A DNA stretch of 28,368 nt from a virus: IMG/VR virus record IMGVR_UViG_3300010288_000003, positions 1 through 28,368 of that record. One strand, 5' to 3'. Below, piece after piece: positions 3,550 through 22,180 of the stretch. The first letter of the stretch is position 1. Each line of letters starts with the position of its first letter. The translations under genes were made by a program, and so were the position numbers. A model generated the notes under the pieces. The model was given only the letters and a program-made list of their open reading frames with translations. It did no database searches and had not been told where the DNA came from.

Positions 3550-4104
3550 TCAACCCTCGACGAGCGCAGCGCCACGAGCCAGGAAGTCGGCCCACTTGTC
3601 CTGCGGGAGCGCCTGCAAGGTCGGCACCCCGTAGCTGGCACGGAGCTCACGAAGCCGTGCCCCACCGTCCGGACCGAGCTTTTTCGCCAACTCGTAGACG
3701 AACTTCTGAAGCTCATCGTAGTTGGCCGGAACCCTGTGAGCAGTCGGCTCGGGCTGCGGAGCGGGCTCGGGCAGCTTCTCGGGCTGCGGAGCGGGCTCGG
3801 GCAGCTTCTCGGGCTGCGGAGCGGGCTCGGGCAGCTTCTCGGGCTGCGGAGCGGGCTCGGGCAGCTTCTCGGGCTCGGACTTGAGCTTAGGCCGAAGCTT
3901 GACCTTGGGCTCCGGCTTGGGGTCGGCCTCGGTAGCCCGCATCAACGTCTGGTTCACTGCCAAACGAGCACGATCGAGATACTCCTCGACCATCTCGGGC
4001 GTGATTTCCCCGTGGCCGAGAACGAGGGTGACCTCTGCCTCTGCCGGGGCGTACTCCGCTACTTGCCGGCGGCGGAGAAAGCGGACGGTAGCCGTCTCAA
4101 TCAT
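3550..4104 (-). CDS. Hypothetical protein with EKLPEPAPQP tandem repeats
   Basis: A 184-aa protein of unknown function in the replication unit. Three parts are visible: an N-terminal folded segment (about 1-60, including VAEYAPAEAEVTLVLGHG), a proline-rich linker (about 62-118) made mainly of four perfect EKLPEPAPQP repeats, and a C-terminal helical segment (about 122-184, DELQKFVYELAKKLGPDGG through LPQDKWADFLARGAALVEG). The C-terminal part resembles the small helical tails seen on several phage DNA-metabolism proteins. The linker should be an extended, rod-like polyproline spacer. The ATG at 4104 overlaps the SNF2 stop by four bases. Its position between helicase and nuclease suggests an accessory role in recombination or replication (inference). 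Confidence 0.8.
   Translation of the reverse strand: MIETATVRFLRRRQVAEYAPAEAEVTLVLGHGEITPEMVEEYLDRARLAVNQTLMRATEADPKPEPKVKLRPKLKSEPEKLPEPAPQPEKLPEPAPQPEKLPEPAPQPEKLPEPAPQPEPTAHRVPANYDELQKFVYELAKKLGPDGGARLRELRASYGVPTLQALPQDKWADFLARGAALVEG
3751..3870. repeat. Four perfect 30-bp in-frame tandem repeats
   Basis: Units at 3751-3780, 3781-3810, 3811-3840 and 3841-3870 are identical at all 30 positions, with a degenerate partial copy on each side. They encode EKLPEPAPQP on the minus strand. Identity at the DNA level, including third codon positions, implies recent expansion or continuing copy-number change by slippage or recombination. Confidence 0.97.
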
Positions 4105-17978: not shown

Positions 17979-18608
17979 TCAGCTCCAGAACCCGCCACGA
18001 AACCAAGGATCGGTCGGAGGGTCGAACCAGCTACGGCCGCCTTCGACGATCTCGACACCCTGCTCGATAGCTGCCGCGAGGCGGGCCCTGCGGATCACCT
18101 CCCGCATCTCCCCGCGCGCCTGGTCGGCCCGAGATGGCGAATTGGCCAAGCTCAACGCAAAGTCCACCGCCAGCGACCATGACAAGGCCTCGACGAAGAG
18201 GCTATCGAACTGTGTCGGATCCGTGACCCGCTCGATGTAGACGATCTTCGCAACCGTGTCGTCGACGAGGATATGCCGCCCCTCGACCTTCCAAGGTATA
18301 TCCCCGGTCGTGTAGTTGACTTGGTGATAAGGATCGGACGGATCGAACAACCCGATGACACGAAGGCAATCGGGCGGGAGCAAAAACTTCTTCGCGAACC
18401 CGAACGGAGGCGCCGCCAGATCGGGAGCGAGCACCGCACGACGGATCGCGAAGCGCCAATTGTAGAGCCGAAGCAGCCCATCTCGATGCAGAGGGTACTG
18501 CTGGGATGCGACACGAGCGGCCTTACGGCTCTCGGTCAGCGAAGAAATTGGGTCCTCGTGAACCTTCGCCAGCGCAGAGTTGACGATCTCGACCTCAGAC
18601 GTCGGCAC
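17979..18608 (-). CDS. Tail tubular protein A (adaptor, T7 gp11-like)
   Basis: A 209-aa adaptor that sits between portal and nozzle. Conserved stretches are EIVNSALAKVHEDPISSLTE, YPLHRDGLLRLYNWRFAIRR, FAKKFLLPPDCLRVIGLFDP and FVEALSWSLAVDFALSLANS. The length matches the T7 gp11 family. It starts at a GTG (18608) with GGAG eight bases upstream and overlaps the thyX 3' end by 14 bases. In T7 it follows the capsid gene; here three small genes and thyX lie between. Confidence 0.92.
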   Translation of the reverse strand: MPTSEVEIVNSALAKVHEDPISSLTESRKAARVASQQYPLHRDGLLRLYNWRFAIRRAVLAPDLAAPPFGFAKKFLLPPDCLRVIGLFDPSDPYHQVNYTTGDIPWKVEGRHILVDDTVAKIVYIERVTDPTQFDSLFVEALSWSLAVDFALSLANSPSRADQARGEMREVIRRARLAAAIEQGVEIVEGGRSWFDPPTDPWFRGGFWS

Positions 18609-19452
18609 GGTCTACGCTCCCCTCGACGGCCCTCTTGATGGCCGGAAACCGCGACCACAGTTCCGATAACTCACTGATCGGAAGCTTATCGAGGTGATGC
18701 TTCTCGACAGGCCGACCAGAGAGCACCCGGTCCAACAAAGCTACCGCCGAAGCAGACAAAGACACCCCGTCCAATCGGTATTCCTTGAACGCCTCGGCAG
18801 TGAGCGGGACCCAGTTTCGCACGAACTCCCAGATCGCCTCGGCATACTCCCGGATCTCGTATTGAGCATGCTCATGAAGCCGAAGTTCCAAAAAGTGCAG
18901 CAAGTTGTGAAGGTCGATTTTCCAGACCCACTCGGTGTAGACGGAGACCGGGAGAACCATCCTGGCGAGTTCAGGAGCAACGTTTCGATCGAGCAACTGG
19001 CGATAGAGCGCGGCACTGTTGTTGCCCATCGCTTCGAAGACGCTGGCATAGAACTCGGCATCGGGGAGCGGGGCGTTCGCACGACCTTGCTTGTTGTTTT
19101 CCGCCGGTGGGCGGATCTGGTCCGGCTCGGGGACGTAGGTGTCGGCCGGGAGCGCGACATACCGGGCGGAGATTTCGTTGATGCTAGCCGTCCGGTGGCG
19201 CATCCACTGCCGAGCGACGAAGATGGGCGCCCGGATCTGGAACTTGACCTCGCACATTTCGAATGGGCTCGTATGCCGGTGGCGCATCAAGTACCGGATC
19301 AACGAGCGATCGAGATGCCCGGGTCGGTTTTCGTCATGCTTCCCGTAGGAGACCCGGGCGGCCTGGACCACCGCCCTGTCGTTCCCCATGCAGTCGATAA
19401 CCCGGACGAAGCCGGCGTTCAAGACTTCGCGCTCGAAGAGAAAATCGGCCAT
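18595..19452 (-). CDS. thyX: FAD-dependent thymidylate synthase ThyX
   Basis: A 285-aa flavoenzyme converting dUMP to dTMP with methylenetetrahydrofolate and NAD(P)H. The defining ThyX motif RHRTASINEISARY occupies residues 85-98 (R-H-R-x2-S-x2-E-x-S-x-R-Y), and the substrate-binding segment RHRHTSPFEMCEVKF lies at about 57-71. Further family pieces are LPVSVYTEWVWKIDLHNLLH and LRLHEHAQYEIREYAEAIWE. All residues needed for activity appear present. The gene interrupts the virion operon between capsid and adaptor genes. It has its own strong promoter candidate (19476-19504) and GAGGAGG ribosome site, so it can be expressed apart from the structural genes. It probably boosts dTTP for replication. 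Confidence 0.97.
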   Translation of the reverse strand: MADFLFEREVLNAGFVRVIDCMGNDRAVVQAARVSYGKHDENRPGHLDRSLIRYLMRHRHTSPFEMCEVKFQIRAPIFVARQWMRHRTASINEISARYVALPADTYVPEPDQIRPPAENNKQGRANAPLPDAEFYASVFEAMGNNSAALYRQLLDRNVAPELARMVLPVSVYTEWVWKIDLHNLLHFLELRLHEHAQYEIREYAEAIWEFVRNWVPLTAEAFKEYRLDGVSLSASAVALLDRVLSGRPVEKHHLDKLPISELSELWSRFPAIKRAVEGSVDRADV

Positions 19453-19475
19453 GGCGAGACCCTCCTCTCACGGGA

Positions 19476-19504
19476 AGCCTACGCCACGGCCGATCTGCTG
19501 TCAA
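19476..19504 (-). promoter_or_regulatory. Candidate promoter for thyX
   Basis: TTGACA (19504-19499), 17-base spacer and TAGGCT (19481-19476) on the minus strand, start predicted near 19469, 17 bases before the thyX ATG. The -35 overlaps the TGA stop of the preceding gene in the context GCTTGACAG, identical to the capsid promoter candidate at 21150-21178. Confidence 0.6.
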
Positions 19505-20185: not shown

Positions 20186-21049
20186 TCACTCGACGCACAG
20201 GATCTTGAGGACCTTCGCGTCCTCACGCCGGACCGCACCCCAGCTGCCCCAGGTATAGATTTGGGTAGCGTGCCGCTTGTCCGGGCGCTCCGAGACGACG
20301 GTGTCGACATCCTGCCGCAGGCCGAACGTAATCGCCGACCGGGTGAAGGCGTAGCAGGCACGGGCGCCGCTCTCGACCTTGAGCCGCTGGCACCGAATGA
20401 ACCGGAACCCGGCGTAGGTGTCGATGTCACCCTGGACGAGAGCCCGGATCACGTTGTAGTCAGCCGAGGTCACGCGGTCGTCGTTGAGCAGATTGGTGAG
20501 CTGCCGAGCAGTGCAGACCACGTACCGCTCCATCTCGTCCACCTCGGCCGCATCGAGAGCCTCCTTGGCGGTGAGGAGCTTCGAGATGGTGAGGCCGACA
20601 CCGGAAGCGCCGATCACGTTGCCAGCCGGGAAGGCCGAGCTGCCAGTCGGGGTCGCGCCGGTGACGACGTTCGCGTCGAACGCGGTGATGATGACGTCGT
20701 CCATCTGCCGACCCATCGCGCCCGCCTGATTACGGGTGTACGAGTTGTTCGGGTCGAGCAGGATGTCCAGCCGATCCTTCTTGTCGATCAGATCAGCTAC
20801 ATCGTAGGTGTCGAAAAAGATCCACCGACGCGAATGCTCCTGCGTGTTCAGCGGCGTGTCGCCATGCCGAACGAGGATCTTGTTCGGGACATCGGGTCCC
20901 ACACCGATGGCATCGTAACTCTTGCTCTCGCCCTGAACGTCCGTGTCGATGTCCACGAACGGGCGAAGCTTGCTCATCCGCTGAGCAGTCAGCATGCGAA
21001 CGGTCGCCGAGTACTGGCGAACGAACGCCTCCGTGATCGAATGCGCCAT
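20186..21049 (-). CDS. Major capsid protein
   Basis: A 287-aa capsid subunit of the podovirus type. The N-terminus ITEAFVRQYSATVRMLTAQR and SKLRPFVDIDTDVQGESKSY is typical, followed by WIFFDTYDVADLIDKKDRLD and LLDPNNSYTRNQAGAMGRQM. A long helix (ISKLLTAKEALDAAEVDEME) comes next, and the C-terminal part (ATQIYTWGSWGAVRREDAKV) is typical of this coat-protein group, probably with an HK97-type fold. The ribosome site (AGGAGG six bases before ATG 21049) is among the strongest in the window, fitting high expression. It follows the scaffold gene across a 125-base leader that holds a promoter candidate and a terminator-like hairpin. Confidence 0.92.
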   Translation of the reverse strand: MAHSITEAFVRQYSATVRMLTAQRMSKLRPFVDIDTDVQGESKSYDAIGVGPDVPNKILVRHGDTPLNTQEHSRRWIFFDTYDVADLIDKKDRLDILLDPNNSYTRNQAGAMGRQMDDVIITAFDANVVTGATPTGSSAFPAGNVIGASGVGLTISKLLTAKEALDAAEVDEMERYVVCTARQLTNLLNDDRVTSADYNVIRALVQGDIDTYAGFRFIRCQRLKVESGARACYAFTRSAITFGLRQDVDTVVSERPDKRHATQIYTWGSWGAVRREDAKVLKILCVE

Positions 21050-21071
21050 CCCTAGCCTCCTCGCCAGAAAT

Positions 21072-21125
21072 AAAAAAAGGGGACAACCCAGGGCTGCGTA
21101 TCAAGGCAGCCGCCGGATTGTCCCC
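21072..21125 (-). terminator. Strong intrinsic-terminator structure in the capsid gene leader
   Basis: On the minus strand GGGGACAA (21125-21118) pairs with TTGTCCCC (21086-21079). Three further pairs (TCC with GGG) and an inner stem GGCTGC/GCAGCC (21111-21106 with 21097-21092) around an eight-base loop follow. Seven T residues (21078-21072) come directly after the outer stem. This is a textbook intrinsic terminator pointing leftward, yet it stands 22 bases before the capsid start codon rather than after it. The structure is seen in the sequence; attenuation or partial termination of scaffold readthrough is inference. Confidence 0.85.
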
Positions 21126-21149
21126 AAGCGGGGGTCCGCCACTAGGGCG

Positions 21150-21178
21150 TACATAACATCGAAGGGAAAGCCTGTCAA
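21150..21178 (-). promoter_or_regulatory. Candidate capsid-gene promoter
   Basis: TTGACA (21178-21173), 17-base spacer and TATGTA (21155-21150) on the minus strand; predicted start near 21143, about 95 bases before the capsid ATG. The -35 overlaps the scaffold stop codon in the context GCTTGACAG. Transcripts from it would run into the hairpin at 21072-21125 within 20 bases. Confidence 0.55.
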
Positions 21179-21969
21179 GCCCCCGTCATCGCCGTGCGCA
21201 TACGATAAGCTTCCTGGGCCAACCGGCGAGCCTCCAGCGGATCCTTGGAAGCCAGCTCGACCGCTCGGCGGGTCAGATCCTCGGCCGCCACCTGCAGACT
21301 GCCCACACCAGGTGCAGCGACATTCGTAGCAGCGACCTCTTGGCGGAAGAACCGGGAGAGCGAAGAGAAAGCGTGGACGAGAGCAGGATGATTAGCAAGG
21401 CCGGCCTTGTCGAGAACCTCAGCCAGCTTCTCGCCCTTGTAGCCGTTGGCGGCCATCAGATCGGACACCGCCGCAAGGGCACGGTTCGCCGACTTGACCT
21501 TGTCGTCGAACCCCTGCCCCCACTCCAAGCGGAGCTGGGCGATCTGCTCGGCAACAGCCTTCTCCCGCTGCTCGATGGTATTCTTCTCGACCTCCGCCGC
21601 CCGGCCGAGATACGCCTCGTACAGTTTCGCGGCTGCCGCAGGGGGAATGCGGAGCGCCTTCGCCTGCTCGATGAACCAGGTGACGCCCTCACCGTTCCTA
21701 GCCTCAGCCGGGACGTTCTCCGACAGGGGAAGAGAATAGTTCTTCTCGTCCTCCGGGAAACCCAGCATACGGGCAGCGAAGACAGCCCGCTCCTCCTCCT
21801 TCTCGGGCAGAACCAGAACCCGATCAGGAGGATGGCCAACGGTCTTCTGGAGATGGACATAAGATCTAGCGAGATCCTCGACCCCGTTGAACTTCAAGAT
21901 CGAAGGGTCGGAACGGAGATCCTCCGGCAAACCGACCCGCCAATCGACAGTCTGCTCAGTCGTCGTCAT
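21175..21969 (-). CDS. Capsid assembly scaffolding protein
   Basis: A 264-aa helical, charged protein immediately before the capsid gene. The start TVDWRVGLPEDLRSDPSILK with FNGVEDLARSYVHLQKTVGH is characteristic of podovirus scaffolds, followed by RMLGFPEDEKNYSLPL. A coiled-coil middle (RAAEVEKNTIEQREKAVAEQ) and a basic C-terminal helix (EARRLAQEAYRMRTAM), likely the capsid-binding end, complete it. I chose ATG 21969 (GGAGG nine bases upstream) over an adjacent TTG at 21972. It overlaps the Bbp19-like gene by 14 bases. Confidence 0.9.
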   Translation of the reverse strand: MTTTEQTVDWRVGLPEDLRSDPSILKFNGVEDLARSYVHLQKTVGHPPDRVLVLPEKEEERAVFAARMLGFPEDEKNYSLPLSENVPAEARNGEGVTWFIEQAKALRIPPAAAAKLYEAYLGRAAEVEKNTIEQREKAVAEQIAQLRLEWGQGFDDKVKSANRALAAVSDLMAANGYKGEKLAEVLDKAGLANHPALVHAFSSLSRFFRQEVAATNVAAPGVGSLQVAAEDLTRRAVELASKDPLEARRLAQEAYRMRTAMTGA

Positions 21970-22180
21970 CAAGCTTTTCCTCCGGGTGGACTTCCAGCTT
22001 ACGAAGGAACACGATCACGGATCGCGCCCCCTCGTTGTAAGCCGTGGCGCAAGGGTCGCCGGGCACGAAAACCGACCGGTCCAGCGCACCGAACCGAGCT
22101 TCCAAGCCGGCGACGAAAGCCTGGAAGCGATCGTCTTTCAGGAGTTCCTGATACAACTTCGCGAACTCGAACTTGGTCAT
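21956..22180 (-). CDS. Bbp19-like small phage protein
   Basis: A 74-aa protein starting at ATG 22180, overlapping the portal stop as ATGA. Its pattern FEFAKLYQELLKDDRF then FVPGDPCATAYNEGARSVIV matches the small Bbp19-like family (named from Bordetella phage BPP-1), where a conserved F-x-P-G-D-P-x2-T-A-x-N-E-G-x-R-S core is found near portal and scaffold genes. The molecular function is not known; a virion or assembly role is likely. An upstream in-frame start at 22399 is rejected because it would lie inside the portal gene. Confidence 0.85.
   Translation of the reverse strand: MTKFEFAKLYQELLKDDRFQAFVAGLEARFGALDRSVFVPGDPCATAYNEGARSVIVFLRKLEVHPEEKLDDDD

Follow-up and report, generated by a model that had tools for sequence, protein, structure and literature searches.

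The leader of the major capsid gene of this phage probably acts in cis as an RNA switch, in which a conserved sensor is coupled to outputs that vary among lineages, the output here being antitermination. The important part of the leader is a small hairpin, rather than the strong terminator whose stem it overlaps. This hairpin is one copy of a 25-nt motif that comparison of leaders indicates to be conserved in many marine and soil phages, ahead of their coat genes, and that appears to form an RNA class absent from Rfam. As the motif competes with a hairpin expected to stop transcription, it probably decides whether the coat protein is made.

The phage and its capsid leader

The window, that is, the whole stretch of DNA analysed, is a 28,368-bp virus contig with 61% G+C. 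Its structural genes lie on the minus strand and specify a large terminase, a portal-like adaptor, an assembly/protease-like protein, the major capsid protein, a tail tube and internal virion proteins. Profile matching (phrog_3437, major head protein; PHROGs, 6e-78) bears out the capsid assignment made in the original prediction. Among annotated capsids, the nearest come from HTVC010P-type Pelagibacter phages (about 40-46% identity by tblastn), and the phage belongs with the HTVC010P-type podoviruses; no relative at the DNA level was found in the annotated phage collection. The original prediction had set the leader against that of T7, where the terminator follows the capsid gene. This comparison is misleading, since the phage groups with the HTVC010P-type podoviruses, of which Skadi reportedly lacks an RNA polymerase of its own (PMC10504331).

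Other features of the window include a thymidylate synthase (Thy1/ThyX) gene (18595-19452) within the structural cluster, between the capsid and tail tube genes, whose start region is covered by a strong hairpin (19443-19495, minus strand, -37.3 kcal/mol). A 30-bp tandem repeat lies at 3718-3921 within an open reading frame (3550-4104), and 101-bp direct repeats (about 2.6 copies) occupy the very end of the contig (28103-28368).

The elements of the leader and the genes on either side are:

21175-21972, minus strand: upstream capsid-assembly/protease-like gene (phrog_3742; PHROGs, 8e-26); the leader starts at its stop codon
21150-21178, minus strand: promoter candidate TTGACA-17-TATGTA with TG before the -10 (TGTTATGTA), read in the sequence; putative transcript start near 21143
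21114-21138, minus strand: conserved capsid-leader RNA motif CGGA-C-[CCCC GCUU GGGG]-ACAA-UCCG, from covariance model R1 (built without the window) and enrichment in leaders
21079-21125, minus strand: terminator hairpin (RNAfold) of 19 bp and a single bulge; GGGGACAAUCCG serves both as its 5' arm and as the 3' half of the motif
21092-21111, minus strand: apical hairpin GGCUGC-CUUGAUAC-GCAGCC, which makes up the upper portion of the terminator; compatible with the motif, and predicted from folds of the growing transcript to form before the motif is lost
21072-21078, minus strand: U7 tract of the terminator, followed by AUUU
21056-21061, minus strand: Shine-Dalgarno (SD) sequence AGGAGG of the capsid gene, 6 nt 5' of the ATG
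20186-21049, minus strand: major capsid protein gene, behind the proposed switch (ATG at 21049)

A terminator-like hairpin preceded by a promoter candidate

A canonical intrinsic terminator is made of a GC-rich stem with a U tract directly after it. In the capsid leader, a stable G+C-rich hairpin is directly adjacent to such a tract. Its computed energy of -37.8 kcal/mol (z -7.8; RNAfold) was reached by none of 200 shuffled sequences. On both strands of the window, no other hairpin with a T tract is as strong as this one (21125-21079). Among 40 dinucleotide-shuffled windows, no hairpin attained -37.8 and only two had -30 or less with at least six Ts. Hairpin and U7 together are predicted to be an intrinsic (Rho-independent) terminator-like site, by far the strongest in the window. 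The original prediction had rightly placed a hairpin and seven Ts ahead of the ribosome site and the ATG; its stem of 17 bp becomes one of 19 bp with a bulged C when folded with RNAfold.

Other assemblies of the same phage have an identical terminator stem, and these are the only sequences that carry the leader of the window (L042, 99.95% identical over 14.6 kb; L127, one mismatch in 6.9 kb). All other relatives have capsids at most 52% identical to that of the window; other structures stand in place of the stem, and no conservation of it was found in relatives beyond the same-phage assemblies. The exact 3' arm with U7 is seen again only in unrelated phages, within other terminator-like hairpins. 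In the loci L043-L047, the exact 18-base arm and U7, GGGTTGTCCCCTTTTTTT, lie in intergenic hairpins of this type.

The promoter candidate can be read in the sequence just as originally proposed: its -35 hexamer (TTGACA, 21178-21173) overlaps the stop codon of the upstream gene (TGA, 21177-21175), and a 17-nt spacer separates it from the -10 (TATGTA, 21155-21150), which TG directly precedes. Relative to the sigma-70 consensus, the -35 is perfect and the -10 weak, with three of six matches and without the final T, which is why a consensus promoter scan of the window did not list it. A TTGACA-N15-19-TAT arrangement is expected 0.23 times per window by chance. By itself, the element is plausible and weak as evidence. 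It gains weight from its recurrence: of 98 related capsid leaders, 14 contain a promoter with at least 11 of 12 matches (0.1 in shuffles), and a TTGAC occurs at -121 to -186 in all of the capsid-closest GC-rich relatives (L049, L050, L051, L052, L093, L128).

Two further arrangements were observed around capsid promoters. In L049, L050, L052, L040 (VP5) and L041 (K300), inverted repeats of 10-14 bp straddle the promoter spacer or -10, about 110-190 nt before the capsid gene; their sequence differs from phage to phage, and they are perhaps operators or hairpins in read-through RNA. In L003/L051 and L146, a terminator-like hairpin lies 5', not 3', of the capsid promoter, about 194 nt and 125 nt before the capsid gene, respectively.

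The small hairpin is a copy of a motif found in related capsid leaders

The capsid leaders compared came from annotated phages and from contigs of viral, bacterial or MAG origin; because a 24-sequence capsid alignment was too diverse for searching, a smaller one was used instead. When the leaders were compared by reading, a small repeated fold stood out, and 98 related leaders were scanned for its 25-nt architecture, stem1-Y-[C-stem2-G]-RYAR-stem1', in which the asymmetric internal loop is conserved and the stems are variable. The structural scan identified 56 strict copies in 50 of the 98 leaders, whereas dinucleotide shuffles yielded 1.3 +/- 1.1 (maximum 4); about half of the leaders are without a strict copy. 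Counted by lineage (less than 55% capsid identity), the motif is present in 12 of 24 groups, where 0.5 are expected, and no copy is seen on the reverse complement. A sharp peak of copies lies 20-200 nt ahead of the capsid ATG, over a low background; the motif is thus concentrated before capsid genes.

The original prediction had called for a comparison of this leader among related phages for compensatory changes. Such changes are found in the small hairpin, whose stems vary with pairing kept: in a set of chosen copies, both sides have changed in seven of the eight pairs, with 78 cells changed on both sides against 26 when shuffled. In the same copies, 93% of cells are paired; the figure falls to 57% on shuffling and to 51% at most on sliding. 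As these copies had been picked by pairing, the weight rests on the shuffle, lineage and position controls. Lack of conservation of the stem in relatives, which had been named as evidence against the prediction, applies to the terminator stem alone, the small hairpin being conserved.

A covariance model, R1, was built from 27 copies of the motif with the window left out. Its sole significant match in the window is at 21138-21114 (20.7 bits, E 0.00094; the next has E 3.6). This is the small CCCC-GCTT-GGGG fold that the original prediction had pointed to, with CCCC at 21133-21130 and GGGG at 21125-21122 on the minus strand, and it is the window's copy of the motif. Over 405 kb of relatives, nearly all matches at E < 1 precede the capsid gene, and those reported in the complete phages VP5 and K300 are in the capsid leader only. 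One weak match (E 0.25) was obtained in 53 kb of unrelated phage DNA. The loose first look of the whole-genome search lost several leader copies, and its negatives are therefore given no weight. Rfam gave no match at gathering score for the window and 18 loci, and nothing relevant at a relaxed threshold; no earlier description of a capsid-leader RNA motif was found in the open-access literature. In the near relatives L049, L050 and L128, stem2 contains a further conserved hairpin, GCTCCG...GACGGCAG.

The motif is predicted to compete with terminator and SD-covering structures

Because the 3' half of the motif doubles as the 5' arm of the terminator, the two structures are mutually exclusive. 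Computed folds of the growing transcript give stem1 of the motif a probability of 0.97-0.99 at 32-38 nt and again of 0.99 at 53 nt, when the re-formed motif is predicted to stand beside the apical hairpin of the terminator. The motif is displaced in these folds only once the 3' arm of the terminator emerges. The energy of the leader is -38.3 kcal/mol with the motif enforced, against -55.6 kcal/mol for the best fold; with the terminator ahead by 17 kcal/mol at equilibrium, any factor would need to act while transcription is under way.

Competition of this sort recurs. Eight copies from different lineages (the window, L137, L139, L144, L150, L007, L014 and L038) show a larger gap between best and motif-enforced fold than any of 60 shuffles, where about one such copy is expected, and the competitor is different each time. 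The SD region of the capsid gene is predicted to be paired in L139, L150, L144, L038, L137 and L007, either with motif strands or with bases immediately adjoining the motif. Complementarity between motif and SD is significant (p <= 0.05 versus shuffled SD regions) in 22 of 60 cases where three are expected, and in 11 of 60 versus the SD regions of other leaders, related leaders being counted in both figures. We infer that, in nearly all competing cases, formation of the motif would mean that the capsid gene is on, and in these models the polarity agrees between terminator and SD outputs.

The mutually exclusive folds noted in the original prediction are therefore supported by comparison, with different partners in other lineages. 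So is its reading of the leader as an attenuator or antitermination switch, given that the small fold is the conserved capsid-leader motif. One defining trait of riboswitch-type attenuators, a conserved element that excludes a terminator or an SD-covering helix, is thus predicted for this leader. The generality of the arrangement is incomplete: AT-rich pelagiphage leaders mostly have no strong competing fold, many despite carrying the motif, and about half of all leaders are without the strict motif. In L130, a terminator-like hairpin is unopposed by the motif.

A model for the proposed switch, and other readings of the leader

In the mechanism that we propose, transcripts that start at the leader promoter, or that run in from upstream genes, would make the 25-nt motif first. 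If nothing held the motif, the 40 nt transcribed next would capture its 3' half (GGGGACAAUCCGG) to build the 19-bp hairpin, and RNA polymerase would stop at U7, ahead of the capsid gene. We infer the existence of a factor that would hold the motif through recognition of its conserved internal loop, where Y faces RYAR next to a closing C-G pair; the lower stem of the terminator would then be blocked, and transcription would enter the capsid gene and the genes behind it. The motif would be the conserved sensor and the terminator the output of this phage; in other lineages, the motif would instead uncover the SD sequence of the capsid gene.

A promoter closely followed by an intrinsic terminator ahead of late genes is a feature of the pR'-tR'-Q late control of phage lambda. 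The window has the same order of parts, with promoter and terminator within about 70 nt of each other and late genes behind, and promoters are recurrent in capsid leaders. A phage or host antitermination protein might thus be loaded at the promoter, with the motif having no say. We regard this as unlikely. Many leaders without a terminator conserve the motif, which there competes with SD-covering helices, and a protein loaded onto polymerase would leave that competition unexplained. No Q-like antiterminator gene was recognised among the scanned proteins of the window, a partial contig. The site further differs from the lambda arrangement in lying inside the structural cluster, before the capsid gene, and in the overlap of a conserved RNA motif with the terminator.

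The original prediction had also considered a leader that stabilises the capsid mRNA. In such a plain 5' leader, the hairpin would protect the message, the U-rich stretch would aid ribosomes as an S1 site, and termination would be rare. U-rich stretches before the SD are indeed common among relatives, and the hairpin starts about 18 nt from the putative transcript start. A 19-bp GC-rich stem with U7 is, on the other hand, a canonical terminator, with the same 3' arm and U7 in hairpins of unrelated phages, and a stabilising role explains neither a conserved motif with an internal loop nor its recurrent competition; we consider this reading unlikely.

The geometry of promoter and terminator would also yield a discrete RNA of about 70 nt with a U-rich 3' end, comparable to the 6S RNA of lambda. 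Such an RNA could work in trans, with capsid mRNA arising from upstream by partial readthrough. The presence of the motif before capsid genes in leaders without such a terminator points to a role in cis and makes a stand-alone RNA very improbable. Least likely of all, the terminator would insulate the capsid gene, served by another promoter downstream, from the upstream packaging, portal and assembly transcript, as the hairpins ahead of the capsid promoter in L003/L051 and L146 might suggest: the promoter candidate of the window sits before the terminator rather than after it, and the 22 nt from U7 to the ATG are too few for a usual promoter.

Returning to the proposed switch, the identity of the factor is a matter of guesswork, a phage assembly protein being our guess. 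In L150, L139, L011/L108, L070, L034 and L146, the motif is also found at the upstream assembly/scaffold gene, about 50 nt or less from its start codon; the scan gives 6 of 89 loci against 0.6 in shuffles, to which L139, whose start was uncalled by the script, is added. Loci without a full-length upstream assembly gene (L017, L134, L135, L140, L039), few in number, are also without the strict motif. No clear association was seen between the motif and the N-terminal signature of the assembly protein. These observations hint at an RNA-binding assembly protein that might act on both genes. It is conceivable, and we put it forward tentatively, that the motif is the RNA target of an assembly protein, either assembly/scaffold or capsid, able to monitor the state of the assembling head. 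Its binding at the assembly-gene start would damp expression there, and its binding to the capsid leader would switch the capsid gene on, through antitermination here and through a freed ribosome site in other lineages. The scaffolding protein of phage P22 is autoregulated, and there too the output of an assembly gene is tuned post-transcriptionally, as the motif at the assembly-gene start of some relatives would suggest. We know of no RNA element common to the P22 system and the capsid-leader motif.

Relation to known systems

Riboswitch-type leaders are characterised by a conserved element whose outputs can be exchanged. As in other attenuators (riboswitches and ribosomal-protein leaders), the 3' half of the conserved element doubles as the 5' arm of the terminator, and the same element is coupled to a terminator in one lineage and to SD-covering helices in others. 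Unlike these, the leader of the window governs a phage capsid gene, and its 25-nt motif with the Y/RYAR loop lies outside the Rfam families.

The put RNA of phage HK022, about 70 nt long and located after early promoters, has two stem-loops; it binds RNA polymerase and works on distant terminators in early operons (PMC9378689). In both cases, termination would be overcome by nascent phage RNA made close to a promoter; the motif of the window, at 25 nt, would do so by excluding one overlapping hairpin. Membership in the put family was considered and rejected, since a single 25-nt element before a late capsid gene is set apart by the description of put (PMC9378689). Cis-regulatory RNAs of marine phages include a glutamine riboswitch, of a known metabolite class, before ssrA in Melnitz, and a cyanophage riboswitch at psbA; both differ from the capsid leader in serving non-structural genes (PMC9004378). 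In Skadi, an HTVC010P-type pelagiphage, the genome study found no terminators or riboswitches (PMC10504331).

How the most abundant protein is timed and dosed in phages without an RNA polymerase of their own is poorly known. A conserved capsid-leader RNA with exchangeable outputs would add to the known RNA classes one absent from Rfam, would offer a compact genetic switch and would give the HTVC010P-type group a shared control point. If the motif is also the target of an assembly protein, one RNA code would balance scaffold and coat across a widespread group of podoviruses.
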